A stretch of 64,000 nt of DNA from Hydrogenimonas cancrithermarum (lineage in GTDB: Bacteria > Campylobacterota > Campylobacteria > Campylobacterales > Hydrogenimonadaceae), in the NCBI RefSeq assembly GCF_030296055.1, contig NZ_AP027370.1, forward strand, positions 1,910,501-1,974,500, read 5' to 3'. Below are positions 21,895-63,698 of the stretch, one piece after another. The notes below the pieces were generated by a model. It was not told where the DNA came from and did not search any database. It saw only the letters and a list, made by a program, of their open reading frames with translations. A program made the position numbers and the translations under genes. Positions within the stretch are counted from its first letter, which is position 1. Every line of letters begins with the position of its first letter.

Positions 21895-22237
21895 ATTTAC
21901 CTCCTAATAAATTTGCACGTTTCTGGAATCACCAAGCGCCCAGATTCAAAGAATTATTTTAATTATTCCTTGAATCCAGGCACTAAGACTCCAACACAAA
22001 TTTATTTTACATGAGTCCGACTGAATTCTTCTTGATTTATGTCAAAAATATTTATGAATGAGACAAAAAAACTAAATAATGAAAAAAAGATTAATATTAT
22101 TTATTAACTTATCTATTATGAGTAAGATTGATTGCTTTTATAATCGAAGCTGAATTGTATGAAAAATCAGAATACTAAAGTCGAACACGTAGTTACGCTG
22201 GAAGAGAGTGTTTTTCGTTTGTTTTGAAAGAGGAGTG
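21895..22237. other. Intergenic region upstream of napA
   Basis: This AT-rich 343-bp stretch holds the napA ribosome site (AGGAGG at its left end), a putative -10 at 22004-22009 and the FNR-type box at 22032-22045. Between 22046 and 22237 I see no gene, repeat or terminator-like stem. Confidence 0.6.
22032..22045 (-). promoter_or_regulatory. FNR/DNR-type operator of the nap operon, TTGATTTATGTCAA
   Basis: The box centre is exactly 32 bp from the centre of TAAAAT (minus strand, 22004-22009), the class II FNR geometry. It would activate napA at low oxygen or with nitrogen oxides. The candidate regulator is encoded just to the right (22238-22885). Confidence 0.75.
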
Positions 22238-22885
22238 TTATAAATAGAAAGTTTCGAGACCCTCCTTGTCAAGAATAATAATCTCATCTTTCTGTTTTTC
22301 GATGAGGCCAAGTGTTGAGAGTTTTTTCAAAATTCGTGAAAGCGTCTCCGGTGTCATGTTCAAATCGGCGGCGATCATGCTTTTTTTGAGTTTTGAAATT
22401 TCATCACCATGCTCGCAGATAAATTTCGCTACTCTGGCCGTTGAATTCATCACCATATTGGTTGCAATGACGTTTTCTAGATATTTGATCTTTTTCGAAA
22501 GCGATTTGATAAATGCAAATGAAACCTCGGAATCTTTGAGAAACTCCTGCTCGAATGCTTCATAGTTTATGACTAGGGCTTTCCCATCGGTTTCGAATTC
22601 GGCGGATGCGGGGTAGCACATATGTTCAAGGTTGACAATTTCTGCAATCATGTCGATCGGGAAAAAGTGATGAAGGATCACTTTGTTTCCCTTTTGATCT
22701 GTTTTGTATACCTGTAATATACCATCAATGAGGATGATCAGAGATTTTGCTTTGTCTCCTTCGAAAAAAACGATCGATCCCTTTTTGTATTCCACAACAT
22801 TGGAGATCTCTTCGAGACGTGCAAACTGCTTGTCGTCCAAATGACGAAAAAGATAGAATTTTTTTAATTGGCTCAGTATATTCAT
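22238..22885 (-). CDS. Crp/Fnr-family regulator, DNR/NnrR-like
   Basis: The roughly 215-residue protein has an N-terminal cyclic-nucleotide-type beta-roll (about 15-110), a dimer helix and a C-terminal helix-turn-helix. The recognition helix reads TPETLSRIL. Its E-x-x-S-R signature is the one FNR uses to read TTGAT half-sites, which is exactly the box found nine times here. It lacks the N-terminal Cys cluster of oxygen-sensing FNR, so it is closer to DNR, NnrR or NssR regulators that respond to NO. The start at 22885 overlaps the upstream small gene; an ATG at 22894 is also possible. Confidence 0.85.
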   Translation of the reverse strand: MNILSQLKKFYLFRHLDDKQFARLEEISNVVEYKKGSIVFFEGDKAKSLIILIDGILQVYKTDQKGNKVILHHFFPIDMIAEIVNLEHMCYPASAEFETDGKALVINYEAFEQEFLKDSEVSFAFIKSLSKKIKYLENVIATNMVMNSTARVAKFICEHGDEISKLKKSMIAADLNMTPETLSRILKKLSTLGLIEKQKDEIIILDKEGLETFYL

Positions 22886-22886
22886 A

Positions 22887-23072
22887 TCATGCATATCTTA
22901 AAAAAAGTCCGATGATGATCGAAAGCAATACCACGATCGAAAGCATCACAGGTGTATAGATTTTTTTCGGAATTGGATAGTGTCTATCGATCCATTCGGT
23001 AATTTTCATTGCAGGAAAAATCATGAAAAAGAGCATCACGATACTAAAGACTAAGGTGAGGACTATGTTCAA
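22887..23072 (-). CDS. Small two-helix membrane protein upstream of the regulator
   Basis: A 61-residue protein if the TTG at 23072 is used, which has AAGGA seven bases upstream; another TTG at 23087 adds five residues. Two membrane helices (about 3-22 and 40-58) flank a short loop IDRHYPIPKK. The stop overlaps the Crp/Fnr regulator start region, so they are co-transcribed. I do not recognise the family. Confidence 0.6.
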   Translation of the reverse strand: MNIVLTLVFSIVMLFFMIFPAMKITEWIDRHYPIPKKIYTPVMLSIVVLLSIIIGLFLRYA

Positions 23073-23693: not shown

Positions 23694-23707
23694 TTGATGT
23701 ATGTCAA
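23694..23707 (+). promoter_or_regulatory. FNR/DNR-type operator of the nor-nir operon, TTGATGTATGTCAA
   Basis: The box centre is exactly 32 bp from the centre of CATAAT (23730-23735). The first gene downstream starts at 23777, and genes are packed without gaps to 32745, so this site probably controls the whole nor-nir unit. Confidence 0.75.
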
Positions 23708-23776: not shown

Positions 23777-24118
23777 ATGGAACCTGTGATCTATATGCCG
23801 CAGATTGCGTCGGATCAGTTTTTGGGAATATTTGTTGTGGCAACACTCGTACTGGTATTCGGGGTGGGTTTTGCTGCAGCGATTACACTCTCGAAAATGG
23901 GATTTATCTCCAGGAGATGGCAGCTTGTCGGCTATATATTCTGGATATTGCAGGCTTACAGTTTGTACGATCTCGCTGTTCGGATTCAAAGCAGTCCATT
24001 TACGACGAAAGTATTGTTGGTAGCGATGGTGGCGTATCTCTTTGCGCCGCATCTGTACTTCTACCTGATCGACGAGTCGGAAAAACGCTATGAATCCGCC
24101 AATGACGGACAACTATAA
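23777..24118 (+). CDS. Three-helix membrane protein at the head of the nor-nir operon
   Basis: The 113-residue protein has three membrane helices (about 14-36, 47-62 and 73-93) and a short charged tail. The ATG at 23777 has AAAGGAG upstream; a longer frame to 23735 would start at the -10 element and is unlikely. It is 16 bases before norC. I do not recognise the family. Its position suggests a role in assembly or function of the NO reductase. Confidence 0.7.
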   Translation: MEPVIYMPQIASDQFLGIFVVATLVLVFGVGFAAAITLSKMGFISRRWQLVGYIFWILQAYSLYDLAVRIQSSPFTTKVLLVAMVAYLFAPHLYFYLIDESEKRYESANDGQL

Positions 24119-24134
24119 AAACAAAGGAGGAGTG

Positions 24135-24800
24135 ATGAGCAAGAAGAGTGCTTCTGTCTGGACGAGTATACCGTTTTGGCGTCGTTCGGCAGCATGGGTA
24201 ACCGGTACGGCAACCGTACTTTTGATCTGGCTAACGTTCGATACGATGGGGCAGATCGCAATGGGTAGCGATGCCGATCTTGAAAAAGGGATCAAACATA
24301 GGATTCCCGCTGCATCGGTCATCAACTATCATATCGATTATGTGATGGATGAAAAGCGTGGGCACGAGGTTCCGGTTATCGGAGAAAAAGAGCCGTTTTT
24401 CGGCAAAGAGTGGAGCAATCAGGAAGCGGCGGACCTGCTGCATCTTGGTAAACTCGCTTCACAGGCAAAAAACTGTATGAACTGCCATACGCTTCTGGGC
24501 AACGGTGCCTATTACGCACCGGATCTGACCAAAGCGTGGCTTGATACAAAATGGAATGATGGCACAATGACCGGTATTACCGGCAAAGAGACGAAAGAGG
24601 AAGCGATGGCGGAATTTTTGATGCATCCTTCCCGATATCCTACGCATGCGCGTATGATGCCAAACCTGGGAATTACGAAAAAAGAAGCGGTTGCGTTGGT
24701 TGCATTCTTGAAACATATGAGTTCTATCGATACCAACGGTTTCCCCCGTAACTTCTCCCAGTCTGCGAAACGTTTAGAAGGAGGTACACATGCTCACTAG
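24135..24800 (+). CDS. norC: NorC, cytochrome c subunit of NO reductase
   Basis: The 221-residue protein has one N-terminal membrane helix (about 18-36) and one haem site C114-M-N-C117-H118 followed by TLLGNGAYYAPDL, the NorC signature. It passes electrons from periplasmic cytochromes to NorB. It is longer than the usual 150 residues because of a loop between the helix and the haem. A strong AGGAGG precedes the ATG. norB overlaps its end by 11 bases. Confidence 0.93.
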   Translation: MSKKSASVWTSIPFWRRSAAWVTGTATVLLIWLTFDTMGQIAMGSDADLEKGIKHRIPAASVINYHIDYVMDEKRGHEVPVIGEKEPFFGKEWSNQEAADLLHLGKLASQAKNCMNCHTLLGNGAYYAPDLTKAWLDTKWNDGTMTGITGKETKEEAMAEFLMHPSRYPTHARMMPNLGITKKEAVALVAFLKHMSSIDTNGFPRNFSQSAKRLEGGTHAH

Positions 24801-26244
24801 TGCACATTTGAAGTATGAATCGCAAAAACTTGCGATGAACTATTTTCGCGTAGCGATCGTCCTGTTCGGCGCACAGTTGCTGATGGGTCTCATTGCCGCG
24901 ATTCAATTTCTATATCCTGGGTTCTTGTTCGAACTTTTTGACTTCAGTGTCGCCCGGATGGTGCATATCAACGCACTTGTCGTCTGGATGCTTTTCGCCA
25001 TGATCGGATCGGTCTACTACATGATCCCTGACGAAACGGGCGAAGAGGCTGTTGCGATCGGCCTTGGAAAGTTGGCATTCTGGGTTTTGACCGCCGCCGT
25101 TACGGTTGTCGTTCTGGTCTACATCTTTATACAGGTCGGGTCTGCAAGCGAAACGACAATCTGGTTCATCAATGAAGGACGCGAATATCTTGAAGCCCCA
25201 CGCTGGGCAGACATCGGTATTGTCGTCGTCGTTCTTATCTTTTACTGGAACGTTTTCGCGACCTACATGAAAGGGCGCAGAACCGGTATTATGACCGTTA
25301 TGGTTGCGAACCTTTTTGCCTTGGCGGGCCTCTATCTGTGCGGTATGTTCTTTACCGACAACATCTCCATGGACCAGTACTGGTGGTGGTGGGTCATTCA
25401 CCTTTGGGTTGAAGCGACATGGGAAGTTTTCGTCGGTACACTTGCCGCATACGCCCTTATCAAGATTCTCGGTGCGAAACGAGAGATTGTCGAAATGTGG
25501 TTATGGATTGAAGTTCTGATGCTTTTTGGTTCAGGTATCCTTGGCCTCGGACACCACTACTTCTGGATCGGTACACCTGAGTACTGGTGGGAAATCGGTG
25601 CACTCTTCAGTGCCCTGGAACCGGTTCCGCTGGTTGCGATGTTCGTTCATGTCCTTTATGATTGGGGCAAAGAACAGGGGCATTGCGAAGCGAAAGGCAA
25701 CGCGCATGCTATCAACAATACGCCTGCCATGGCATGGATTGCGGCCAACGCGTTCGGAAACTTCCTTGGTGCAGGTATCTGGGGATTTTTCCACACATTG
25801 CCACAGGTCAATATCTATACACACGGTACGCAGTTTACGGCGGCACACGGCCACCTGGCGTTCTTCGGCGCTTATGCGACGATTCTTATCGGAATGATGT
25901 ATCTCGCTGTGCAGGGTGCATACGGTGTCAAAACTATGAAGATGACATTCAAGACAAAAATGTCGCTTTTCCTCATCATTTTCGGTGTACTCGGTATGAC
26001 GGTCGCATTGACGATCGCCGGATATGAGCAGGTTCTCGTCGAACGTGCGGATCTTGGTGGCGGATGGGATGCATTCTTCATCGCACAGGAACTGCCTTGG
26101 TACGTACAGGCTCAGGCGTGGCGCTTGGTGATGGGCCTCGTCACCTTTGCGGGATTCGTTTATCTCGCATGGGACCTTTTGACTATCGGAAAAGTCACAG
26201 CTACTGAGGAAGCAGCTGAAGGCATGGCCGCTCAAGCGGCATAA
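24790..26244 (+). CDS. norB: NorB, catalytic subunit of cytochrome c-dependent NO reductase
   Basis: The 484-residue protein has 12 membrane helices and reduces 2 NO to N2O. The helix VI motif WWWWVIHLWVEATWEVF holds the non-haem iron His and the Glu four residues later that mark cNOR. Other conserved His lie in GHHYFWIG and HGHLAFFGAYA. It has no N-terminal quinol-oxidase extension, so it is the cNor type and partners NorC. This is a useful in-window standard for the divergent haem-copper subunit at 56681. Confidence 0.96.
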   Translation: MLTSAHLKYESQKLAMNYFRVAIVLFGAQLLMGLIAAIQFLYPGFLFELFDFSVARMVHINALVVWMLFAMIGSVYYMIPDETGEEAVAIGLGKLAFWVLTAAVTVVVLVYIFIQVGSASETTIWFINEGREYLEAPRWADIGIVVVVLIFYWNVFATYMKGRRTGIMTVMVANLFALAGLYLCGMFFTDNISMDQYWWWWVIHLWVEATWEVFVGTLAAYALIKILGAKREIVEMWLWIEVLMLFGSGILGLGHHYFWIGTPEYWWEIGALFSALEPVPLVAMFVHVLYDWGKEQGHCEAKGNAHAINNTPAMAWIAANAFGNFLGAGIWGFFHTLPQVNIYTHGTQFTAAHGHLAFFGAYATILIGMMYLAVQGAYGVKTMKMTFKTKMSLFLIIFGVLGMTVALTIAGYEQVLVERADLGGGWDAFFIAQELPWYVQAQAWRLVMGLVTFAGFVYLAWDLLTIGKVTATEEAAEGMAAQAA

Positions 26245-50042: not shown

Positions 50043-51941
50043 TTATCTTGTTTGCATCTCGTTGATGATTTCGGTGAAAACTTCGAACCTTTTTTGAGAA
50101 GGTGCGATCATCTTCATCACGATCTCTCCAAGTCGTGGATCGATGGTATCGTTGATTTTGGAGGGGTGTTTTGCCGGACTCGTTTCGATAGGATTGAAAA
50201 GGTGTGTTCCCTGGTACGCTTTCGTTCCCGTGATTTTTTTGTAGATATCGAGTCCGAGAAGGAAGATTTCGTTATGCTCGATATTGGGCTGCCATTTGGG
50301 ATCGAATGCAAGCGGTTCGAAGCCGTTCGGTCCGCATACCTCCACATTCCAGCGCAGGATGAATTCGATCGCACCTTTCGAGTAGCGTCTGAAAAGCCGG
50401 CTTTCGAAACGTTCGAACGATTCACGCGGTTTGCGCAGATCGCGGTAGGCTTTCACGAGTTCGGCAACGTAATGTTTCGCACGGCTGAGCGGCACCGTCT
50501 TCATGATCGTGTAAGCCTCCTCCTGGGTGATGGAGGACTTGCCGCCGATCTGGATGTGCACACCGTAGACATTCTGTCCGTTCTCTTTGGCTTTACAGCC
50601 GATGAAGCCGATGTCGCCCAGTTCGTGCACGCCGCACCCTTTGACACATGCCGACCAGTGCATGCGGATCGCCGCATCGGCCGGAAGCGGGACCGTTTCG
50701 CCCAAAAATTCAGCCATTTCGATTGCATCGGCTTTGTTGGGGATGACACCGAACGGGCAGAGATCGATTCCCGCACAGGCGACCATCTGATTGAAGTAGG
50801 GGGTCGAGATGCAGTGGTAGCGGTCGTAAGGCTTTCGGGTCAACGCTCCGGGAATCTTCTCTTCCGGTACACCCAGAATGTAGAGATTCTGTGTCGTCGA
50901 GACGTTGAGCTTTCCGTTGCCGAGCTCCGCGGCCAGTTCGCCTGCCTCGATCATCGCCGTGCCGCTGAAGATGCCGGACGGTACGACCATATGGAGTGCG
51001 AAGCCGCCCTCTTTGAGCCGGATGCGGCCGTCACGCTCTTCGGTGCGCGGCTGTTTCACGAGGGTTTCGCCAGCCGTGTCGAAATCGTGCCCCGCCATCT
51101 CTTTGACCGTATCGACCACGAGTTTCATGCCAGCCTCTTTGATCAGAAAGTGGAGGCGGTTTTTGTTGCGGCTGTCACGGAAGCCGTAGTGCCGATACAT
51201 TTTGATGAGTGTTTCGTAGAAAGGGATCACCTCCTCGTAACGGACGAAAACATCCGCCGACTCGGCGATGGCACCCACTTTTCCACCGAGATAGACGTTG
51301 AAACCGTATTCGCCCTCTTTGACGGCCAGTGCAAAGCAGCAGTCGTGGGCGAAGAGGTTGCAGCGATTGGTCATCGATCCGCTGATGGATGTGTTGAATT
51401 TCCTCGGCAGCGCGGCGATCCAATCCTCTTTTTTGAGCCACAGATCCTGCATCTGCCCGATCAACGGCATGACATCGAGGATATTGTCGTGCGAGAGCGC
51501 GTTCAACGGGTCGGCGACGATATTGCGGAAGTTGTCGACACCTGTCTGCCAGCTTGTGATGCCGACACTTTCGAGCTCTTCTATAATATAAGGAATGTTT
51601 TCGATCTCCAGATGGCGCAGCTGTACCTGGGCCCGTGTCGTCAAATCCATATAGTCGTTGCCGTAGGCTTTCGCCATGCGCCCCAGTACACCCGCCTGCT
51701 CGCTCGTCAGGCGTCCGGCCGGAATGCGGATACGCATCATGAATCTGCCCGGCGTGGCCGGCCGGTCGAAGATACCGAAACATTTGAGAAAAAACTCCAT
51801 ATCTTCTTTAAGAATGGTGTCGTACCCTTTCTCGGCATAGGTTTGCAGCGCTTCCCACGCCTCTTTGTAGCTGCGGGTAGCTTTGAGTTTTTCGATTTTG
51901 TTTATTTTGGTATGTCTGGCTTGGATCTCTGCGAGTGTCAT
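50043..51941 (-). CDS. Ferredoxin-type assimilatory nitrite reductase (siroheme)
   Basis: The 632-residue protein contains the paired nitrite/sulfite reductase repeats. Siroheme and [4Fe-4S] ligands are in CAGIDLCPFGV and SACVKGCG. It reduces nitrite to ammonium in the cytoplasm with ferredoxin electrons. The size and motifs fit NirA better than dissimilatory sulfite reductase, and the divergent narK and nearby NasA-type gene support that. A sulfite reductase cannot be excluded. AGGAAAG precedes the ATG. Confidence 0.82.
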   Translation of the reverse strand: MTLAEIQARHTKINKIEKLKATRSYKEAWEALQTYAEKGYDTILKEDMEFFLKCFGIFDRPATPGRFMMRIRIPAGRLTSEQAGVLGRMAKAYGNDYMDLTTRAQVQLRHLEIENIPYIIEELESVGITSWQTGVDNFRNIVADPLNALSHDNILDVMPLIGQMQDLWLKKEDWIAALPRKFNTSISGSMTNRCNLFAHDCCFALAVKEGEYGFNVYLGGKVGAIAESADVFVRYEEVIPFYETLIKMYRHYGFRDSRNKNRLHFLIKEAGMKLVVDTVKEMAGHDFDTAGETLVKQPRTEERDGRIRLKEGGFALHMVVPSGIFSGTAMIEAGELAAELGNGKLNVSTTQNLYILGVPEEKIPGALTRKPYDRYHCISTPYFNQMVACAGIDLCPFGVIPNKADAIEMAEFLGETVPLPADAAIRMHWSACVKGCGVHELGDIGFIGCKAKENGQNVYGVHIQIGGKSSITQEEAYTIMKTVPLSRAKHYVAELVKAYRDLRKPRESFERFESRLFRRYSKGAIEFILRWNVEVCGPNGFEPLAFDPKWQPNIEHNEIFLLGLDIYKKITGTKAYQGTHLFNPIETSPAKHPSKINDTIDPRLGEIVMKMIAPSQKRFEVFTEIINEMQTR

Positions 51942-52105: not shown

Positions 52106-53383
52106 ATGAAGTTGGGCGAACTTAAAACGGCGGGGCATCTGCCCACACTGCTCGCGGCTTTCCTCTATTTCGATTTCAGTTTCATGGTCTGGACGATGCT
52201 TGGGCCGCTGGCGACGGAGATTTCGGAATCGCTGGCGATGCACGGCTTCGCGTTGACCCCTGGGCAGAAAGCGACACTGCTGGCCATTCCGATTCTCTCG
52301 GGTGCCATTCTTCGTATCGTTTTGGGATTCGGTGTCGACAAGTTTGGGCCGAAAAAGACGGCATTGATGGCACAGGCCATTGTCATCGTGTCGCTGTTTT
52401 ACGCCTATCTTCGCGGTGAGAGCATCACCTACAACGAACTGCTGATGGTCGCCTTCGGCCTCGGTTTTGCGGGTGCGTCGTTTGCGGTGGCGCTCCCTCA
52501 GGCGGGGCAGTGGTATCCGCCAAGACTTCAAGGCCTGGTACTGGGGCTTGCCGGCGCCGGCAACATCGGTGTCGTCGTCGATTTCCTTTTCGCGCCGAAA
52601 ATCGCGGAGCTTTGGGGATGGCAGACGGTCTTTCTGGTCGGCGGCGTTCTTTCGACCTTCATCTTTCTCGTCTACACCTTCATGGCCAAAGATGCGCCAC
52701 CGTCGATCTATAAGCCGAATCCCAAGAAGCTGGGCGATTATCTGAAGCTTCTCAAAGACAAAGATACATGGTGGTTCAGCCTCTTTTACGCCGTCAGCTT
52801 CGGGGGTTTCGTAGGATTCGCGAACTACATGAAAGTCTATTTGATGAACACCTACCAGGTCGACATGAGCGCTTTCGGCCACGAGTTTCTGGGTGAAGAG
52901 AACGTGAAAGTCGTCGCGGGTTATTTCGGTGCACTCTGTATATTCGCCGGGGCGGTACTGCGGCCGGTGGGCGGCGGTATCGCCGACAAGCTGGGAGGCG
53001 TCAAGTCACTCTACATCTTCTTCGGTGCGGTCGCTACACTGGCGGTTGTCAACGCGACGCTGGTGCACAACTTCTACCTTGCCATTCTGGTACTTTTTCT
53101 CATCATGGCCAACCTCGGGATGGCCAACGGTGCGGTCTTCCAGCTCGTACCGCAGCGGTTTGGCAAAGATATGGGTATCATGACCGGTGTCGTCGGCTGT
53201 GCCGGCGGTCTTGGCGGAACGGCACTCATCAAGACGCTTGGATGGTCCAAAGGCGCCTTCGACAGTTACGCCGCGGGTTTCTTCATCTTTGCCGGTGTCG
53301 TACTCGTCGCCATTCTCGGTATCAGCCTGGTCAAAACCCGCTGGCGCACCACCTGGGGATTGAGTGCAGGCGGCCGTATTTAA
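52106..53383 (+). CDS. narK: Nitrate/nitrite transporter of the NarK/NasA family
   Basis: The 425-residue protein has 12 membrane helices of the major facilitator superfamily. The family's Arg in RIVLGFGVDKFGPKK and the nitrate signature segments GLAGAGNIGVVVDF and GVVGCAGGLGGTAL are present. It imports nitrate or exchanges it for nitrite. Between nirA and the PP2C/kinase gene, it probably serves assimilation. AAGGAG precedes the ATG. Confidence 0.92.
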   Translation: MKLGELKTAGHLPTLLAAFLYFDFSFMVWTMLGPLATEISESLAMHGFALTPGQKATLLAIPILSGAILRIVLGFGVDKFGPKKTALMAQAIVIVSLFYAYLRGESITYNELLMVAFGLGFAGASFAVALPQAGQWYPPRLQGLVLGLAGAGNIGVVVDFLFAPKIAELWGWQTVFLVGGVLSTFIFLVYTFMAKDAPPSIYKPNPKKLGDYLKLLKDKDTWWFSLFYAVSFGGFVGFANYMKVYLMNTYQVDMSAFGHEFLGEENVKVVAGYFGALCIFAGAVLRPVGGGIADKLGGVKSLYIFFGAVATLAVVNATLVHNFYLAILVLFLIMANLGMANGAVFQLVPQRFGKDMGIMTGVVGCAGGLGGTALIKTLGWSKGAFDSYAAGFFIFAGVVLVAILGISLVKTRWRTTWGLSAGGRI

Positions 53384-54254: not shown

Positions 54255-55889
54255 ATGGCGGACGAATTATTCAAAGTAAGTTCGTTCGGATTGGCCAAAG
54301 GCAAAGAGCTCGTCAGCGAAGATTTCTCCGCCGTCAGGGTCATTGACGACCTCTGTGTGGGCATCGTCTGCGACGGGGTCGGCAGTGCGGAAGCGGGGGG
54401 CAGGGCCGCCCGCCGCGTCGTCAACTACCTGATGAACAACTTCAAGAGACGCCCGCGAAGTTGGAGTATCGAAAAATCGCTGCACCGTTTTATCGCCGGC
54501 ATCAACGCCATTCTCTACCGTGAAGGGATCGAGGAGTACGAGCGGCCCGAGTACGTCACGACCCTCTCCATCGTCGTCATCGATGGCAATCGCCTCTACG
54601 GGGCCAACGTCGGTGACTCTCCCATTTTCCTCTATCGAAACAGCCATCTGCAGGAGATCTCGTTCGCCCACGTCAGCGACGAGCCGGGAATGGCGCATGT
54701 CATCACCCAGGCGATCGGCCTTTCGGAGACGGTGGACCCTTACCTGTTCGAAAACAATCTCGAAACCGGAGACATTCTTCTGCTCGCGAGCGATGGGCTC
54801 GAAAAGGTGCTTACGCCTCTTGAGATCGAGGCGAAGCTCAAATTCGGCGCCGCGTCGATCGTCAAGAACGCCAGCCGAAAGGTCGGCGACGACCTTCCCG
54901 ACGACACCACGGCCGTCGTCATCGAAATCGTTGGCGAAAGCAGGCGCCAAAGCCTGAAAAATATCGACCTCCCCATTCCCGTACGGCTGGAAAAAGAGCA
55001 GGAGATCGACGGTTACCGGCTTGTTGGGCCGCTCATTCGGAACGAACGCACCTGGCTGGCGGAAAAAAAGGGGGTGAGGTACGTTCTGAAATTTCCGCCC
55101 GTAGAAGCGGCCGAGGACGAACAGCAGCTCGACCTCTTCGTCCGTGAAGCGTGGAACGCTTCACGCCTCAAGGCCGGATTTTTCCCGAAAGCGGTCATTT
55201 CGAGAAACCGCACCGTCCGCTATTACGTTATGGAGTATCTGGAGGGCCCAAGCCTCAAAGAGCTGACCGAAAAAAAGCCGTTGCCGGTCGAAGATGCCAT
55301 CCAGCTCGGAAAGTTTCTGCTCCATGCGTGCCAGTTCCTGCTCAAGTTTGATCTGGTCCACGGCGATATCAAGCCTGAAAACATCGTCGTGCTCGAACGC
55401 CACGGCAAGCGGGTTTTCAAATTGGTCGATTTCGGCTCGATCGTCGAGATCTTCTCGATCGCTTCTCGTGCCGGGACACCGAGCTACCTCGCACCCGAAC
55501 GTTTCGCCGGCGAACCGATAAACGAGCAGACCGAAATTTTCGCGATCGGCGTGACGCTCTACGAGGCGTTGAGCGGAAAGTTCCCGTACGGCGAGATCGA
55601 ACCGTTTCAGAACCCGGTCTTCAAAACACCCAAGCCGGTGCGCATCTACAACAAGACGGTACCTGCATGGTTCGAAGCGGTCGTGATGCGAGCCATCGAA
55701 CGTGACAAAATACGCCGCTACGAAGTCTACAGCGAGATGGAGTATGAACTGACCCATCCCGAGAAGGTGAAACCGTACTATCCAGAAAACATATCGCTTT
55801 TCGAACGGGAGCCGGTGAAGATCTATCGGGCCCTTTTCGTGGTGAGTACACTCCTCAACCTACTGCTGGCCACCTTGCTCTTGAGATAA
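54255..55889 (+). CDS. PP2C phosphatase and Ser/Thr kinase fusion
   Basis: The 544-residue protein has an N-terminal PP2C-type phosphatase (GIVCDGVGSAEAGG, ANVGDSPIFLY, LLLASDGLEKVL, DDTTAVVIE; about 1-230) and a C-terminal protein kinase (VHGDIKPENIV, DFGSIVEI, PSYLAPERF; about 250-500), ending in one membrane helix. In Pseudomonas a similar fusion lies beside assimilatory nitrate genes, as it does here. It could set nitrate uptake or reduction by phosphorylation. The kinase loop has HGD rather than HRD. Confidence 0.88.
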   Translation: MADELFKVSSFGLAKGKELVSEDFSAVRVIDDLCVGIVCDGVGSAEAGGRAARRVVNYLMNNFKRRPRSWSIEKSLHRFIAGINAILYREGIEEYERPEYVTTLSIVVIDGNRLYGANVGDSPIFLYRNSHLQEISFAHVSDEPGMAHVITQAIGLSETVDPYLFENNLETGDILLLASDGLEKVLTPLEIEAKLKFGAASIVKNASRKVGDDLPDDTTAVVIEIVGESRRQSLKNIDLPIPVRLEKEQEIDGYRLVGPLIRNERTWLAEKKGVRYVLKFPPVEAAEDEQQLDLFVREAWNASRLKAGFFPKAVISRNRTVRYYVMEYLEGPSLKELTEKKPLPVEDAIQLGKFLLHACQFLLKFDLVHGDIKPENIVVLERHGKRVFKLVDFGSIVEIFSIASRAGTPSYLAPERFAGEPINEQTEIFAIGVTLYEALSGKFPYGEIEPFQNPVFKTPKPVRIYNKTVPAWFEAVVMRAIERDKIRRYEVYSEMEYELTHPEKVKPYYPENISLFEREPVKIYRALFVVSTLLNLLLATLLLR

Positions 55890-56075: not shown

Positions 56076-56669
56076 ATGTTTCAGACATCGATCGAACTGT
56101 TGAAGTTCCACTGGATGGCCTACACGATCTATGCATTGTTGATCATTTCGGTCATTGCATGGTTCGGCTACAATCTGGGCCGTAAAGAGAAGGCCAGGTC
56201 ATGGGTACGTATCCCTTTTTATGGATACATCGCCTTTCTGGTCGCCGGCGGGGTGGGGCACCACATCTTCACCTACAACGCCATCCCCTGGGTGGCGGAG
56301 GATATCATGCGCCACGACATCAAGGCCGACAGAGAGTACGACATCTCCATCGAACGGCACAAATGGAAGCTCCCAGAAGAGCAGATGGTGGCAAACATGG
56401 GTGAGAAGGTCCGCTTCAACGTCCGGAGCAGAGACCTCACCTACGGTTTCGGCCTCTTTCGCAAAGATGGCACGATGGTGATGCAAATGCAGGTGGTTCC
56501 CAAGCACGATAACGACATTCTCTGGACTTTTCACGAGTGCGGGACGTTCGACCTCACATCCACCGAGTATGCAGGCCCACGCCAGTACGAAAAACATACG
56601 GGCGAAGACCTGATGCTGGTCAAAGATGCCCTCGTTGTCCACTGCAACGACAAATTCGCGAGCAAGTAA
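56076..56669 (+). CDS. Subunit II-like cupredoxin protein without CuA
   Basis: The 197-residue protein has two membrane helices (about 14-33 and 46-66) and a periplasmic cupredoxin domain. The CuA loop CSExCG is replaced by S162-T-E-Y-A166-G, and the upstream His is Tyr123. So the binuclear copper site is lost, as in quinol-oxidising subunit II proteins. It partners the divergent subunit I that follows by 11 bases. Electrons may come straight from quinol. Its start has AAGGAG upstream. Confidence 0.82.
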   Translation: MFQTSIELLKFHWMAYTIYALLIISVIAWFGYNLGRKEKARSWVRIPFYGYIAFLVAGGVGHHIFTYNAIPWVAEDIMRHDIKADREYDISIERHKWKLPEEQMVANMGEKVRFNVRSRDLTYGFGLFRKDGTMVMQMQVVPKHDNDILWTFHECGTFDLTSTEYAGPRQYEKHTGEDLMLVKDALVVHCNDKFASK

Positions 56670-56680
56670 GGAGACCATTG

Positions 56681-58378
56681 ATGCAAACAGTAGAGAAAAA
56701 ACCGTTTTTCGACCAGTTGATGAACGGCACCAACTTCGATGCCGACAGTCTCAGCGCCCTGCAGAAGGTGACGCTGCGGGCGGTGGTGATGAGTTTCATC
56801 TTTTTCGGCCTGGTGGCCCTGGAGGGGATGATCATGCGGATGGTGCAGACCGGCCCCGCCAATCCGCTTCCGGAGATGTTCAGCCATCCCGACCACTACT
56901 TTTCGATCATGACAGTGCACCCCATTGTGGGGATATTCGGCTCGACCTATCAATTGGTTTTCGCCGCCTTCATGTTTTTGGTGCCCTACCTGACCAAAAA
57001 GCCGCTCTACAGCGTGAAACTTGCCAATTTCGTCTGGCTCTGCATCACGATCGGTACGGCGTTGGCGTGGATCGCCGGGTTTATCTGGCAGTACGCACCC
57101 CTCTACACCCTCTACTGGCCGCTGCCTGCGGATACCGAACAGTTCAGTATCGTCGGCGGTTTCGTATTCGTCGTCGGGGTGGCGTTGATCATGGTGGGGA
57201 CGCTGGGGTTCATCTACAACATCTACGCCACGATCTTCGCCCGTGTCGGCGTGCATAAGAACAAGACGACCAAAGAGCTGCTCATCTCCGGTTTCGGGAT
57301 CGATGGGTTGATGAACCTGATTCACAAGCTTACCGGCAAACCTCCCTACTCCAAAGAGCCGGCACTCAGCCTCCCGGTGGTTGCCATCTTCCGCGGCACT
57401 GTGGACACCTTCCTCGACGCTATCGTCATTCTGGGTGCGGGGATTTTGGTTCTTGTCTATCTCATCGCCGACGCGGGCGGGCTGAGCTGGGATGTCCACG
57501 CGGTCGACTCGCTTCTTTACAAAAACTACTTCTGGTGGGGGCTCGATCTGGTGGCCGACGGCCTGGTCCTGATCTACGTGGCCGGGTCCTGGTACCTGCT
57601 GGCGACGATCATCACCGGCCAGAAGCTCTTTATGGAGAACGTCGCCCGGGCTGCACTGCTTTTGGAGCTTTTCGTCAGCTGGATGGTTTGGAGCCACCAT
57701 CTGCTGGCCGACCAGCCCCAGCCCGAGATGATGAAACTGGTTTCGGGCGAGATGGTGACGGCTTTCGAGCTGCTGACCCAGGGGCTGGCGCTCTTTATCA
57801 CGCTGGTGACGCTCTGGAAAGCGCGCCCGCTTAAAATGACGCCGGAATTGGCCTATCTGCTGGGCGGTCTGGTGGGATTCGGCCTGGCGGTTCCCGCAGG
57901 TATCATCCAGGCCGATATGGGCCTCAACCGTGTGCTGCACAATACCCAGTGGATCAGTTTCGCCCACTTTCACATCGCGTTGATCGTAGGGCTCTACATG
58001 ACGCTTTACAGCGCACTGTACGTGCTCTGGCCACTGGTCACCAACAACACGAAGCTCTTCAGCAAGAAGCTGACCTGGGCCCACTTCTGGCTCTATCTGA
58101 TCGGCGGGGTCGGCATGGGTGCCTTCGCCGGCATGGCGGGGCTTGACGGTATGCTGCGCCGCCATCTCTATGTGGACGGCGAGTTTGGCGGCCTGATGAT
58201 CCTGGCGGCCATCTTCGGCTCGATGGTGCTTATCGCCTGGTTCCTTTTCCTCTACAACATCGTCATGAGCGTAGGGCTCAAGGGACTCATCGGCATCTTC
58301 AAACCGGCCAACAACGACATCGCGAGTTACGGTATCGAAGAGGAGCCCGAACCGGCTCCCGCCGCCGTCAAAGCTTAA
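56681..58378 (+). CDS. Divergent haem-copper subunit I, NO-reductase-like (gNOR type)
   Basis: The 565-residue protein has about 14 membrane helices. Haem ligands His80, His429 and His431 and the helix VII pair His339-His340 are present. The helix VI CuB/FeB His is replaced by Asp289 (WWGLDLVADG), and the oxidase Tyr position is Asp293, where cNOR has Glu. This points to NO reduction with a carboxylate-bound non-haem metal rather than O2 reduction. Families called gNOR and related names have been proposed for such enzymes. Exact family placement needs a tree. An FNR-type box leads the operon. Confidence 0.8.
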   Translation: MQTVEKKPFFDQLMNGTNFDADSLSALQKVTLRAVVMSFIFFGLVALEGMIMRMVQTGPANPLPEMFSHPDHYFSIMTVHPIVGIFGSTYQLVFAAFMFLVPYLTKKPLYSVKLANFVWLCITIGTALAWIAGFIWQYAPLYTLYWPLPADTEQFSIVGGFVFVVGVALIMVGTLGFIYNIYATIFARVGVHKNKTTKELLISGFGIDGLMNLIHKLTGKPPYSKEPALSLPVVAIFRGTVDTFLDAIVILGAGILVLVYLIADAGGLSWDVHAVDSLLYKNYFWWGLDLVADGLVLIYVAGSWYLLATIITGQKLFMENVARAALLLELFVSWMVWSHHLLADQPQPEMMKLVSGEMVTAFELLTQGLALFITLVTLWKARPLKMTPELAYLLGGLVGFGLAVPAGIIQADMGLNRVLHNTQWISFAHFHIALIVGLYMTLYSALYVLWPLVTNNTKLFSKKLTWAHFWLYLIGGVGMGAFAGMAGLDGMLRRHLYVDGEFGGLMILAAIFGSMVLIAWFLFLYNIVMSVGLKGLIGIFKPANNDIASYGIEEEPEPAPAAVKA

Positions 58379-58391
58379 AGAAAATTTGTCG

Positions 58392-58411
58392 GACGCCCCT
58401 CGGGGCGTCCC
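58392..58411 (+). other. Intercistronic hairpin after the haem-copper subunit
   Basis: GGACGCCCC and GGGGCGTCC form a perfect 9-bp GC-rich stem with a two-base TC between the arms (a larger loop in practice). It begins 13 bases after the stop codon and has no T run right after it. It may protect or attenuate the operon message. Confidence 0.55.
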
Positions 58412-58436: not shown

Positions 58437-59042
58437 TTGACAAATCTCGACCGCGTCGCCCGAGAGATCAAGACGGTGGGTCTCTACGACCTCATTCTAC
58501 AGGATGTGCAAAAGATTCTCGGGATCCAAAAGCCCACCGTCGAGCAGATTTTGGAGGTGTTGGGCAGCCATCCCCAGATTTTGTACGACTACAAACAGAC
58601 CAATGTGGAGTACAATCTTTCAAACATCCATCTTCGGGACATCCCTCTCGATGGACTCGAAGGCGAATGCCTGCAAAAAGCGAAAAAGGTCAACGAAAAC
58701 CTCTCTGTATTGCGGGCGATCGAGAAGTATACCCTCGACTTCGCCCACTCCTCGACACTGGTTATCATCTTCAGTGTGGAGTTTTTCGTCCTCTTTTCGG
58801 TGCAGTATTTCATCGTGCTTCTCAATCTCAAGGCCTACCAGTGGTATATTTATGGGCTATTCGCTCTCTCGATCGTGGCGGCGTGGTGGTACGCCAAGCG
58901 GGAACAGCGCAAGTATGGCAGGGAGAGTGCCCGCTTCGAGAAGCTCTACCACGAGACGCTCGAGATCCTGGAAGCGTTGGAGGAGAGCGGCTGTGTGAAA
59001 AAGGAGACGCTCTGGATCCACGAGAGTGACGAGCATGTCTGA
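58437..59042 (+). CDS. Hypothetical two-helix membrane protein in the gNOR-like operon
   Basis: From the TTG at 58437, with GGGAGG upstream, the protein is 201 residues. A soluble helical N-terminal half is followed by two membrane helices (about 100-125 and 132-150) and a charged coiled-coil tail. No known family is recognised. Its place directly after the subunit I gene suggests assembly or regulation of that enzyme. Confidence 0.68.
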   Translation: MTNLDRVAREIKTVGLYDLILQDVQKILGIQKPTVEQILEVLGSHPQILYDYKQTNVEYNLSNIHLRDIPLDGLEGECLQKAKKVNENLSVLRAIEKYTLDFAHSSTLVIIFSVEFFVLFSVQYFIVLLNLKAYQWYIYGLFALSIVAAWWYAKREQRKYGRESARFEKLYHETLEILEALEESGCVKKETLWIHESDEHV

Positions 59043-59535
59043 GTCGTTGAAACTGCACTGGGACGAGGCGACTTTCCTGGAGGGTGCCAGGCTCGCCTAT
59101 ACTTATCAAATGCGCCATACTTGGCGACGGTATGCGGGGTGGGTCTTTATCGCACTGACGCAGTTCGGGGTGGTAGGCGCGGTCAGCCACGGCGCCCCCG
59201 GGTTACTGCTGGTCTCGACACTGCTGCTTCTCTACTGGTACGGGCTGCGCTGGCCTCTACGGAAAGCGGCGTTGAGACGATTTTTCGAAAAGTCGCCGTT
59301 TGCCGGAGAGACTCTGCATATCGTTGCGGAAGAAGAGGGTCTTTGTATCAACCAACGATGCGTACCGTGGCCCGAGTTCAAACGCGTATTGGCTGCGAAA
59401 GAGGGCTATTTGCTCGATATGGAAGATAGCTTTCTCTATATCCCGAAAAACCGCTTTGAAAACTCCGATACCCGTGAAGCCTTCTCCTCTCTTTTGAGAA
59501 ACAGCGTGGAACAATTTCAAAAAGTGGAGCTTTAA
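59035..59535 (+). CDS. YcxB-like membrane protein
   Basis: The 166-residue protein has two N-terminal membrane helices (about 31-47 and 53-72) and a cytoplasmic C-terminal domain with the YcxB-like pattern VPWPEFKRVLAAKEGYLLDM and FLYIPKNRFEN. Function unknown. It overlaps the previous gene by 8 bases, so it is in the same operon. Confidence 0.72.
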   Translation: MSESLKLHWDEATFLEGARLAYTYQMRHTWRRYAGWVFIALTQFGVVGAVSHGAPGLLLVSTLLLLYWYGLRWPLRKAALRRFFEKSPFAGETLHIVAEEEGLCINQRCVPWPEFKRVLAAKEGYLLDMEDSFLYIPKNRFENSDTREAFSSLLRNSVEQFQKVEL

Positions 59536-59631: not shown

Positions 59632-59750
59632 GGCCCATTTTGCCGCGTAATGGCAGTGATTAAATTTTAGTCATATAGAAGCGATCGAAAGTGCTACAAT
59701 CGAATCATTAATACCCTATGCTTTTCAGAGGTCTGAGGGATGGAGCGAAT

Positions 59751-61346
59751 ATGAGCGAAGCGAAAAGTGCGATCGACAGCTTTTTGGATCACAAAGCCGA
59801 AACGGGGATGCAGTGCGGCAACTACAGCATTGACATTCCCGAGTTGAAACCGGGCCAACAGTACCGTTTCCATTTCGACATGACGGCGTGTGTGGGATGC
59901 CACTGCTGCGAGGTGGCCTGCAACGAGCAGAACAACAACCCCGCCGATATCAAGTGGCGCCGCGTCGGGGAGATGGAGACGGGGCATTTCCCCGAGGTTC
60001 TGCAGCTCTTCAACTCGATGAGCTGCAACCACTGCATCGACCCTGAATGTCTGAAGGGGTGTCCCACCAACAGCTACATCAAACTCGACAACGGCATCGT
60101 TTTTCATGAAGACGAAACCTGCATCGGCTGTCAGTACTGTACCTGGAACTGTCCTTACGAAGTACCCGTTTTTCATAAAGAGCGTGGCATCGTCACCAAA
60201 TGCCACATGTGTGTCGACAAACTGGAAGCCGGCCAGACCCCAGCATGTGTGCAGGCATGCCCAGCCGGTGCCATCGAGATCGAAGTGGTCGACACGGAGG
60301 AGTGGCTGAGAGAGGGAATGGCCAAAGAGGGAGTGGCGCCGCATCTGCCCGATATCTCCATCACCAAACCGACGACGCGCTATACGCTGCCCGACATTCC
60401 CGAAGGCGAGGAGATCCGCCCGGCGGACGAGCATCTTCTCAAACCGGCCCATCCTGAACTTCCGCTAGTTTTCATGACGGTCTTGACGCAGATGTCGGTG
60501 GGCGGATTCGTCGCACTCTTTCTGGGCGAGCTGATCCATCTGCTGGGCCTCGACCTTCCTGCACCGAATCTTTGGATGGTGATCGCCGTACTGCTTCCTG
60601 CCGCGGTGGGGCTGCCGCTTTCCGCACTGCATTTGGGGCGTCCGATTCTGGCGATTACGGCAATGAAAAACCTCAAAACATCCTGGCTCAGCCGCGAAGC
60701 GGCGGCACTGGGGGCCTATGCTGGAGGCGTGACGTTTTTGGTGGGAATCTATGCACTCGGAGCACCGGGGTGGCTGAAGTTGATCGTCGAGATTCCGATA
60801 CTCGCGCTCGGCATCTACGGCATCTACGCCCAGTCGAAAATCTATCGTATCAAAGCGCGTCCGGCGTGGGATAGAAAGTCTACGACGTTTCGCTTTTTCG
60901 GAACGGGGTATCTCGGGTTCTTGCTTGTCGCGGTCGTTCTTGCGACGACGGGTGAGGCGCGCAGCGTGTTGGCACTGCTGGCACCTACGCTGATGCTGGG
61001 GCTCTACCAGATGCACTTGATCTACGAAGAGACCGTTTTTTACAAGTATCTGGAGAGGGAGCATCCGCTCTACTATCCGCTCAGCCGTACCAAACGGTTG
61101 CTGGAAGAGTATTTCGGTAATCTGAAGAAATTTCGCCTGGCGAGCCTGGCGCTCTTCGCGATCGGCCTGCCGATGGTATCGATCGTATTCGCTGCGGCCA
61201 ATATGGGGATCGCCGCGGCCTTTATACTTGCAATTGCCTTTGTCGGGGCAACGGTGAGTGAATTGGCCGGCCGGTATCTCTTTTATCGAACGGTGGTGCC
61301 GCTCGGACTTGCTGGGAACTTTTTCGCGGGGAATCAGCGCCATTGA
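59751..61346 (+). CDS. Fused DmsB-DmsC-like iron-sulfur and membrane subunit
   Basis: The 531-residue protein has a cytoplasm-type ferredoxin domain with four [4Fe-4S] sites (CVGCHCCEVAC, CNHCIDPECLKGCP, CIGCQYCTWNCP, CHMCVDKLEAGQTPACVQACP) in residues 40-200. A linker and an eight-helix DmsC-like quinol-binding membrane part (about 240-525) follow. No Tat signal is present, so the Fe-S domain stays inside the cell. With the next gene it could form a membrane-bound, quinol-driven cytoplasmic nitrate reductase. Confidence 0.83.
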   Translation: MSEAKSAIDSFLDHKAETGMQCGNYSIDIPELKPGQQYRFHFDMTACVGCHCCEVACNEQNNNPADIKWRRVGEMETGHFPEVLQLFNSMSCNHCIDPECLKGCPTNSYIKLDNGIVFHEDETCIGCQYCTWNCPYEVPVFHKERGIVTKCHMCVDKLEAGQTPACVQACPAGAIEIEVVDTEEWLREGMAKEGVAPHLPDISITKPTTRYTLPDIPEGEEIRPADEHLLKPAHPELPLVFMTVLTQMSVGGFVALFLGELIHLLGLDLPAPNLWMVIAVLLPAAVGLPLSALHLGRPILAITAMKNLKTSWLSREAAALGAYAGGVTFLVGIYALGAPGWLKLIVEIPILALGIYGIYAQSKIYRIKARPAWDRKSTTFRFFGTGYLGFLLVAVVLATTGEARSVLALLAPTLMLGLYQMHLIYEETVFYKYLEREHPLYYPLSRTKRLLEEYFGNLKKFRLASLALFAIGLPMVSIVFAAANMGIAAAFILAIAFVGATVSELAGRYLFYRTVVPLGLAGNFFAGNQRH

Positions 61347-61363
61347 TGCGACGCGTCAATGGA

Positions 61364-61391
61364 ATGGAAGATGGAAAATGGAGAATGGAAA
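61364..61391 (+). repeat. Heptanucleotide tandem repeat ATGGAAR x4
   Basis: Four 7-bp units (ATGGAAG, ATGGAAA, ATGGAGA, ATGGAAA) sit directly before and over the possible start codons of the molybdoenzyme gene. Alternative ATG codons occur in the same frame (61359 and 61392). Confidence 0.8.
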
Positions 61392-63698
61392 ATGATTGAA
61401 AAATTGAAATCGATGTTGGGGTTGGATATCAAGGAAGAGAAATATGCCTTGATCGATGATCCCTTTTTCGGCAAAGTGGCAAAAGAGAAGGCGCCTGACG
61501 AATGGGTGCGTTCGACCTGTGGCTACTGCGGCGTGGGGTGTGGGCTCTACATCGGCGTCAAAGAGGGGGATCCGGTCTATGTCAAAGGGGACCCGGACCA
61601 TCCGGTCAACCGCGGGACGCTTTGCCCGAAGGGGCTCAGCGAGCACGAGATGGTGCGCGCGCCCTCGCGGCTTCCTGGCGCGATGATAAAAAAGAACGGC
61701 AGATTTGAACAAGTGACTTGGGACGAAGCCTTCAGAGTGACCAGCGATGCGTTCAAAGAGATACAGGCCAAATATGGCAAGAGTGCGGTTGCCTGCATTT
61801 CGACAGGACAGCTTCTGACCGAAGAGTTCTATACGCTCGGAAAGTTCGTTCAGCTGGGGCTCGAGACCAACAACTACGACGGCAACACGACGCTCTGTAT
61901 GGCGAGTGCCGTCATGGGTTACAAGCAGAGTTTCGGAAGTGACGGCCCTCCGGGCTGCTACGAGGATTTCAGCCATGCCGAGGTGATCATGCTGATCGGC
62001 GCCAACATTGCCGACAACCATCCGATTCTCAAGCTCCATATCGCCCGGAACAAGAAGGTGCGGGGCAAGAAACCGACGATCATCGTGGTCGACCCGCGCC
62101 ACTCCAAGACGGCGAATATGGCCGACATCTACCTGCCGATCAAACCGCGTACCGACCTGGCGTTCATCAACGGTTTGTGCTACATCATCTGGGAGCAGGG
62201 GTGGATGGACGAGACGTTCATCAACGAGCGGACCGTCGGTTACAAGGAGTTTATAAAAGATATTCAGAAGTACCCGCCGCAGGAGGTGGCGCACATCACC
62301 GGCATCGACGTCAAGAGACTCTACGAAGTGGCGAGGTTCTACGCCGGGGCCGATGCGGCGATGAGTGCCTGGACGATGGGAGTCAACCAGTCGGCGATGG
62401 GAACCGATACCGTCAGTGCTATCGTCAACCTTGCCCTGATGACCGGCAACCTCGGCAAACCGGGCGGATCGCCGTTTAGTATCACAGGACAGTGCAATGC
62501 GATGGGAACGCGCGAGAGCGGCTTTACGAGCTCGATTCCGGGCTACCGCAACTTTGCGAGTGCCGAAGACCGCAGAGAGTATGCCGAAATCGTCGGCGTG
62601 CCCGAAGAGCTGGTACCCACAAGCCGCGGCTTTGCCTACCCGCAGATCATCGAAGCGATCGAAAGGGGGGAGATCAAGGCGCTGTGGGTCGTGGCGACCA
62701 ATCCGTTGGTGAGTTACCCCGATCAGCCCAGGCTTCGAAAAGCGCTCGCGAAGCTCGAGATGCTGGTGGTGCAAGATAGCTTCATGAGCGACACCGCCGA
62801 GCTGGCCGACGTACTTTTCGGCGCTGCCACATGGAGTGAAAAAACCGGTACCTACACCAACTCCGAGCGCCGCTGCAACCTCGCCAAAAAGTCGGTGCCC
62901 AACTACAAGGATTCCAAAAGCGACTTCGAAATCGTCGTGGAGTTCAGTAAATATTTCGATGGCAAATACGAACGGCTCTTCAATGGCTGGAGCAAACCCG
63001 AAGACGCCTTCGAAGAGTGGAAAAAAGTGAGCAAAGGGCGGCTCTGTGACTACAGCGGCATGACTTACGAAAAGATCGAGAAACTGGGCGGGATCCAGTG
63101 GCCCTGCAACGACGAGCACCCCGAAGGGACGCCACGCCTTTATGACGAGGGAATGAAGACCAGCAATGCCGAGGGTAAGCCGAAGTTCGTCTTCGCCGAC
63201 TGGTTTCCGATGGAGGAGAACATTTGCACCGCGTTCCCGCTCATTCTCAACACCGGCCGAACCGTCGAGCAGTTTCATACCCGTACCAAAACCGGTACCA
63301 TCAAGATTCTCGAAGACTTGGCGCCTGAAGCCTGGGTGGAGCTGAGCCCCAAAGATGCCGAAAAGCTGCAGGTCAAAAGCGGCGACCGCATTTCGCTCAG
63401 CTCTCCCCGCGGACGGGTCGACGACGTTATCGTTCGCGTCACCGAGGTTGTCGGAGAGGGGACGGTTTTCGTACCCTTCCACTTCAACGAGCAGCTCGTC
63501 AATAGGCTGACGCAGTCGCTCTTCGACCCCAAGTCATTCGAACCCAACTACAAGCAGACAGCCATCCAACTGCACAGCGAAAAGGTGCCCGAGGGCATCA
63601 AACTGGCCGAAGAGGAGATCGCGGGGGCGTTGGGGTACGAGAAAATCGAGAGTGAAAAAGAGATGATGGTGGTATCGCAGAAAGGAGCTGGGATTTGA
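61392..63698 (+). CDS. NasA-type assimilatory nitrate reductase (molybdopterin enzyme)
   Basis: From the ATG at 61392 the protein is 768 residues. It has an N-terminal [4Fe-4S] site (CGYCGVGC, CPKG), the Mo-ligand Cys in NTTLCMASAVMGYKQSFG, and the C-terminal substrate domain (LNTGRTVEQFHTRTKTG). No Tat signal is present. The core matches NasA/NarB, which reduces nitrate to nitrite in the cytoplasm. The neighbouring DmsBC-like fusion would link it to the quinol pool. Nitrate is the likely substrate because nirA and narK are near. Confidence 0.88.
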   Translation: MIEKLKSMLGLDIKEEKYALIDDPFFGKVAKEKAPDEWVRSTCGYCGVGCGLYIGVKEGDPVYVKGDPDHPVNRGTLCPKGLSEHEMVRAPSRLPGAMIKKNGRFEQVTWDEAFRVTSDAFKEIQAKYGKSAVACISTGQLLTEEFYTLGKFVQLGLETNNYDGNTTLCMASAVMGYKQSFGSDGPPGCYEDFSHAEVIMLIGANIADNHPILKLHIARNKKVRGKKPTIIVVDPRHSKTANMADIYLPIKPRTDLAFINGLCYIIWEQGWMDETFINERTVGYKEFIKDIQKYPPQEVAHITGIDVKRLYEVARFYAGADAAMSAWTMGVNQSAMGTDTVSAIVNLALMTGNLGKPGGSPFSITGQCNAMGTRESGFTSSIPGYRNFASAEDRREYAEIVGVPEELVPTSRGFAYPQIIEAIERGEIKALWVVATNPLVSYPDQPRLRKALAKLEMLVVQDSFMSDTAELADVLFGAATWSEKTGTYTNSERRCNLAKKSVPNYKDSKSDFEIVVEFSKYFDGKYERLFNGWSKPEDAFEEWKKVSKGRLCDYSGMTYEKIEKLGGIQWPCNDEHPEGTPRLYDEGMKTSNAEGKPKFVFADWFPMEENICTAFPLILNTGRTVEQFHTRTKTGTIKILEDLAPEAWVELSPKDAEKLQVKSGDRISLSSPRGRVDDVIVRVTEVVGEGTVFVPFHFNEQLVNRLTQSLFDPKSFEPNYKQTAIQLHSEKVPEGIKLAEEEIAGALGYEKIESEKEMMVVSQKGAGI

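Follow-up and report, generated by a model that had tools for sequence, protein, structure and literature searches.

What reaction is catalyzed by a haem-copper subunit I in which the helix VI metal ligand is an aspartate, and what purpose does such a protein serve in a genome that also encodes an ordinary NO reductase? The gene, norG, lies in a window of 64,000 nucleotides (the whole stretch of DNA that was analysed), and an earlier note on this DNA had taken it for an alternative NO reductase, probably gNOR, coexisting with a full cNorBC; norC and norB were both located in the window (Table 1). Three families of NO reductase, gNOR among them, have been put forward on sequence evidence alone. 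We suggest that norG and the gene preceding it, norH, encode a gNOR-type (NorGH) enzyme that would draw electrons from quinol and clear NO arising in nitrate and nitrite metabolism, a reading to which we assign a probability of roughly 0.8.

Table 1. Positions, strands and supporting evidence for the norHG locus and related features of the window
Feature	Positions	Strand	Evidence or remark
NirA-like ferredoxin nitrite reductase	50043..51941	-	NCBIfam NF007125, 3e-99
NarK-type nitrate/nitrite transporter	52106..53383	+	NCBIfam TIGR00886, 4e-73
PP2C phosphatase/Ser-Thr kinase fusion, nitrate-assimilation cluster	54255..55889	+	Pfam PP2C_2, Pkinase
Candidate Fnr/Dnr-type operator, TTGATCTATGTCAA	56004..56017	+	72 bp ahead of norH start
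norH, gNOR subunit II, 197 aa, two TM helices and cupredoxin domain	56076..56669	+	Profile, AlphaFold, Foldseek
norG, gNOR subunit I, haem-copper fold, 565 aa	56681..58378	+	Pfam COX1, alignment, Foldseek
orf201, small two-TM protein of 201 aa, third gene of norHG unit	58437..59042	+	TTG start, GGAGG ahead
YcxB-like protein	59035..59535	+	Overlaps orf201 stop; Pfam YcxB, 1.6e-5
Fe-S and DmsC-type membrane anchor fusion	59718..61346	+	Pfam Fer4_11, DmsC
NasA/NasC-like assimilatory nitrate reductase	61359..63698	+	NCBIfam NasC, 529 bits, below cut-off
norC of separate cNOR	24090-24800	+	
norB of separate cNOR	24790-26244	+	

The norG reading frame starts at an ATG preceded by the ribosome-binding site TAAGGAG; its product matches Pfam COX1 (PF00115; E = 3e-51), and haem-copper subunits I are the best Foldseek matches of its model. 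No NCBIfam model scored above its cut-off in a search with NorG, the top model, CtaD/CoxA, reaching 79.8 bits where 670.75 are required, so that ordinary annotation would at most say oxidase. The AlphaFold model is weak around the active site (pLDDT 66 overall and about 52 near helix VI) and was therefore used for the fold only, with no distances taken from it. Alignment assigns H80 and H431 to the low-spin haem, H429 to the high-spin haem and D289, H339 and H340 to the non-haem metal, with D293, four residues past D289, at the position held elsewhere by Tyr or Glu; a check of the translation showed that the earlier note had numbered the residues correctly and was right about the haem ligands and the H339/H340 pair. 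All seven residues (HDDHHHH) are invariant in 92/92 distinct full-length Campylobacterota homologues, a set that spans clades at 62-66% and 56-60% identity, and invariance that extends to clades only 56-66% identical means that D289 is neither a chance substitution nor a sequencing error.

The replacement of the helix VI His could be fixed with the aid of a Trp that sits four residues ahead of the ligand His in all haem-copper proteins examined bar one B-type protein. Anchored on this residue, the gNOR segment W285-W-G-L-D289-L-V-A-D293 pairs gaplessly with WWVIHLWVE of cNorB, WFFGHPEVY of ctaD and WWTGHPIVY of ba3. Column 289 of the alignment contains Asp in 19/19 gNOR sequences and His in 15 of 15 reference proteins, which comprised A, B and C oxidases, cNOR, qNOR and Q-type (eNOR-like) proteins; column 293 contains Tyr in A and B oxidases, Glu in cNOR and qNOR, Gln in the Q-type and Asp in gNOR. 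These columns come from a generalised-affine alignment, which agrees with the Trp anchor; a first MAFFT alignment had set helix VI of the references one column off. No alignment supplies a His at position 289, and both substitutions claimed previously, Asp289 for the helix VI His and Asp293 where oxidases have Tyr and the cNorB of the window has Glu, are borne out.

Immediately upstream of norG, and preceded by its own ribosome-binding site, norH provides a second diagnostic feature that was absent from the earlier note. A Pfam search with norH alone returned no match, and a weak Pfam match of its members to CzcE was judged uninformative. A profile built from 43 norH relatives matched the Thermus ba3 CuA domain (2.5e-8 for a ba3-based CuA construct and 4e-5 for 1ehk chain B); the AlphaFold model (pLDDT 88) consists of two TM helices and a beta-barrel, and Foldseek retrieved subunit II of bo3, ba3 and aa3 oxidases. 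All of the CuA ligands are replaced in norH, with STEYxGP standing for CxExCG and the two His becoming Tyr and Gln, and the loss is conserved among its relatives, in which Cys, Cys, His and His have given way to Ser/Thr, Ala/Ser, Gln and Tyr. The gene is conserved in 79 loci and lies ahead of norG in essentially every locus with upstream DNA. Since NorH keeps the cupredoxin fold but has lost CuA, electrons would most likely be delivered directly from (mena)quinol and not from cytochrome c. Four His residues (12, 62, 63 and 95) are invariant in main-clade norH despite the loss of CuA; H12 and H62-H63 are predicted to lie where the two TM helices end on the periplasmic side, and the invariant residues may form a quinol or cofactor site.

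Which family these two subunits belong to was judged from a tree with A, B and C oxidases, cNOR, qNOR and Q-type proteins as references and, for gNOR membership, from published descriptions. The gNOR sequences form one long branch that groups with A and B against the C/cNOR/qNOR side (100/100) and lies outside A (100/100) and outside B plus the Q-type (99/100), although support is weak for just where it branches with respect to A and B; the protein does not fall inside any ordinary oxidase family. With D289 and D293, NorG departs from the three His ligands and Tyr of the A, B and C oxygen reductases; D289, the cupredoxin NorH and the tree position set it apart from cNOR and qNOR, and it has Asp where eNOR has Gln, the Q-type proteins forming a different clade. 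Where sNOR carries Asn in place of the Tyr (PMC8756737, Table A4), all gNOR homologues have D293. Proposals of gNOR/NorGH are credited to Sievert et al. 2008, Hemp and Gennis 2008 and Murali et al. 2024 in PMC8756737 and PMC11388526; the family has been described as having an active-site Asp at the Tyr position and as occurring in Sulfurimonas, Sulfurovum and Persephonella (PMC8756737, Table A4), as quinone-oxidising and non-electrogenic (PMC8906906) and as placed near the B-family oxidases, and it is listed as proposed only, with no purified or assayed member (PMC11388526). norHG resembles the published family in its Asp at the Tyr position, in having two subunits of which the second is a cupredoxin without CuA and in its occurrence in Sulfurimonas, Sulfurovum and their relatives, and no differing feature was found against these descriptions; the proposal that the gene is an alternative NO reductase, probably gNOR, is therefore supported. 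norHG is almost certainly a member of gNOR, to which known, sequence-proposed family it adds, and its product would turn over NO. A tblastn search of plasmid records found distant oxidases only and no gNOR. Genes on two Thermus thermophilus plasmids and one Thermomicrobium roseum plasmid (loci L151, L152 and L150), annotated as cbb3-type subunit I, are of the eNOR type, with Gln in place of the Tyr; the Thermus genes have a DUF542 protein and an Rrf2 regulator encoded next to them, neighbours indicative of NO handling. A haem-copper homologue on a plasmid of Azospirillum sp. TSH58 (L153, ORF from about 1481), has Tyr-His for the helix VII His-His and GYFHF for GHFH and is possibly another unusual NO reductase or a degenerate enzyme.

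An operator of the same type as that listed in Table 1 occurs upstream of norH in 62/81 distinct loci, mostly at 60-89 bp, against 2/81 control regions, and is present in all three gNOR clades. The window contains 9 copies of the pattern TTGAY-N4-RTCAA, where 0.37 would be expected, and the genome has it at 38 places against 2 for the reversed pattern. In this denitrification region Fnr/Dnr-type boxes are thus strongly enriched; they lie at 22032, 23146, 23694, 32742, 35272, 41620, 50014 and 56004, and the genes that they precede include napA, the norC operon (box at 23694-23707, 84 bp ahead of the first gene), a MauG-like dihaem protein and a siroheme decarboxylase fusion; a further match at 428 resembles a terminator hairpin and was rejected as an operator. 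We suggest that a regulator of the Crp/Fnr type activates norHG at the same time as the operons for nap and cNOR; the Crp-family regulator encoded at 22238-22894 would be our guess for the cognate protein. Separately, features of this genome at about 1,111,001-1,198,807 and 1,222,018-1,309,824 (G000:C1) recur unchanged 111,017 bases further on, as judged from two identical ccoN scores, identical operator sites and 100% identity in two sampled stretches; the repeat is either an artefact of assembly or a tandem duplication that is recent and very large.

The genes around norHG in the window run in the order nirA, narK, yebC, kinase, norH, norG, orf201, ycxB, FeS-anchor and nasA. orf201 follows norG in 59/63 loci, being missing only from the 58%-identity clade; its weak Pfam match to MSC was judged uninformative. 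Between norG and orf201, an inverted repeat, GGACGCCCCTCGGGGCGTCC (58391-58410), followed by a short T run resembles a terminator or attenuator, so that the expression level of orf201 may differ. The YcxB-like gene comes next in 35/63 loci, many of them of clade 1, and the PP2C/kinase fusion is close to norG in 15/63; the Fe-S/DmsC-type fusion is a probable electron-transfer partner of the nitrate reductase. Depending on the gene, nitrate-assimilation genes lie within 9.5 kb of norG in 11-18 of the 63 loci, not all of which are independent, and their orders and orientations vary. We rejected the idea of a constant tie between gNOR and nitrate assimilation, since the arrangement is found in only a minority of loci and the two genes lie within about 6 kb of each other in only 6 of the 14 genomes with both on one contig. 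In a locus of the same genus (L130), the flanking nirA, narK, yebC and kinase genes are 81-92% identical to those of the window and norG and norH only 58% and 49%, and in another locus (L012) norHG has been exchanged likewise, the kinase and FeS-anchor genes having stayed in place; diverged norHG amid conserved flanks shows that the cluster held on to a gNOR but changed the allele. The position of norHG inside a nitrate-assimilation cluster makes NO removal during nitrate and nitrite reduction its likely job, beside the main respiratory cNOR.

gNOR is common in sulphur-oxidising Campylobacterota. The 72 related loci, mostly 80-92% identical, are from Campylobacterota, including metagenome-assembled genomes named Sulfurimonas, Sulfurovum, Nitratifractor and Hydrogenimonas; those in Sulfurimonas and Sulfurovum (L037, L038, L042, L055, L056 and others) are 80-83% identical. 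Among 397 good Campylobacterota genomes, 46 carry gNOR and 49 NasA/NasC-like orthologues; NasA accompanies gNOR in 28 of the 46 and was undetected in 18. Restricted to cNOR-bearing genomes, gNOR and nasA associate (27/13 versus 16/28; Fisher p = 0.005, kinship ignored). These data bear on a different role, which we regard as a plausible though less favored alternative: that gNOR serves mainly in respiratory denitrification and is near the nas genes by accident. Such a role would fit the presence of cNOR in 40 of the 46 gNOR genomes, the operator type common to the norH, nap and norC operons and the majority of gNOR loci that lie outside nas clusters; against it, a dedicated cNOR is already present, six genomes have gNOR but no cNOR, the nas linkage recurs in differing gene orders, and one and the same cluster retained a gNOR through the allele exchange.

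The chemistry of the site bears on whether the enzyme has left O2 reduction behind. E363 of NorG aligns with Glu280, the helix VIII Glu of cNOR and qNOR, in a column where every oxidase and Q-type protein aligned lacks an acid; the alignment here is pinned by the HH pair at one side and the PTG/TQG motif at the other. As to the absence of a proton channel that goes with the non-electrogenic description of gNOR, the A-type PTG of helix VIII is TQG in NorG, but the helix is also rich in invariant polar residues. In cNOR, Glu211 and Glu280 are critical for activity and proton uptake (PMC3431322), and their part in proton delivery to the di-iron site has been discussed (PMC6713497). As aligned, gNOR has acids at both NO reductase positions as well as an acidic first-shell ligand, a combination that would favor iron over copper and NO over O2. 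We propose, then, that NorG contains two haems, one low-spin and one high-spin, the latter opposite a non-haem metal site, that this site, with two His, Asp289, Asp293 (Glu211 position) and Glu363, should hold iron and not copper, and that it should couple two NO to N2O. It is improbable, to our minds, that norHG encodes a divergent quinol oxidase which has retained O2 reduction, its acidic residues tuning a copper or iron site. The branch does lie on the A/B-oxidase side of the tree, the Arg-Arg pair of A and B oxidases is kept (R493-R494), the subunit II resembles that of quinol oxidases in being without CuA, and Fnr-type boxes control oxidases too in many bacteria; the cross-link Tyr and one His ligand are nonetheless missing from 92/92 sequences, carboxylates stand at both cNOR-type positions, a cbb3 oxidase is already encoded in the genome and norHG co-occurs with cNOR and nas. 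Action on another N-oxide, or a non-catalytic role in sensing or buffering NO, could be entertained for a family that is proposed only (PMC11388526) and whose metal site has no counterpart in the characterised families, but is equally improbable given haem ligands and a polar set around the site that are invariant over wide divergence, as expected of an enzyme.

Beyond the NO-clearing gNOR that we favor, a more speculative extension, which we hold to be rather doubtful, is that a two-His, two-carboxylate non-haem iron site unseen in characterised haem-copper enzymes arose within the A/B-oxidase lineage and converged on cNOR at the Glu211 and Glu280 positions, that orf201 completes a three-gene complex and that, in some of the Campylobacterota, the whole serves assimilatory nitrate reduction as a module dedicated to clearing NO. 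Many genomes of this phylum, complete ones included, carry gNOR beside cNOR, a second NO sink that standard annotation misses; the operator, the third gene and the nas-linked allele exchange yield specific, testable statements on when and why gNOR is used, and D289 and E363 are residues informative on how an oxidase scaffold becomes an NO reductase. The conserved box, the third gene and the recurrent nas-cluster location are apparently an unreported context of gNOR in the literature compared, and no mention of the His-to-Asp ligand change was found in that literature, Murali et al. 2024 apart.

Like cNOR and qNOR, gNOR has carboxylates at the Glu211 and Glu280 positions and would be expected to use non-haem iron and perform NO chemistry; unlike gNOR, those enzymes keep three His ligands and work with a haem c subunit or with a quinol domain fused to the enzyme, whereas the Asp ligand, the cupredoxin subunit and a place on the A/B-oxidase side of the tree are features of its own. 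With B-type (ba3) oxidases and eNOR it shares that side of the tree, a cupredoxin subunit II and the RR pair among other residues, but where gNOR has Asp and Asp, the B-type has His and Tyr and eNOR His and Gln, and the B-type ba3 enzyme compared keeps CuA. The arrangement of the locus recalls the nasC operon of Bradyrhizobium, whose co-encoded system disposes of the NO formed during nitrate assimilation (PMC4724949): in the nasC-bjgb operon, as here, NO removal is encoded with an assimilatory nitrate reductase and NarK, but the agents there are a single-domain haemoglobin and a flavoprotein, in contrast to the membrane haem-copper enzyme that norHG encodes.
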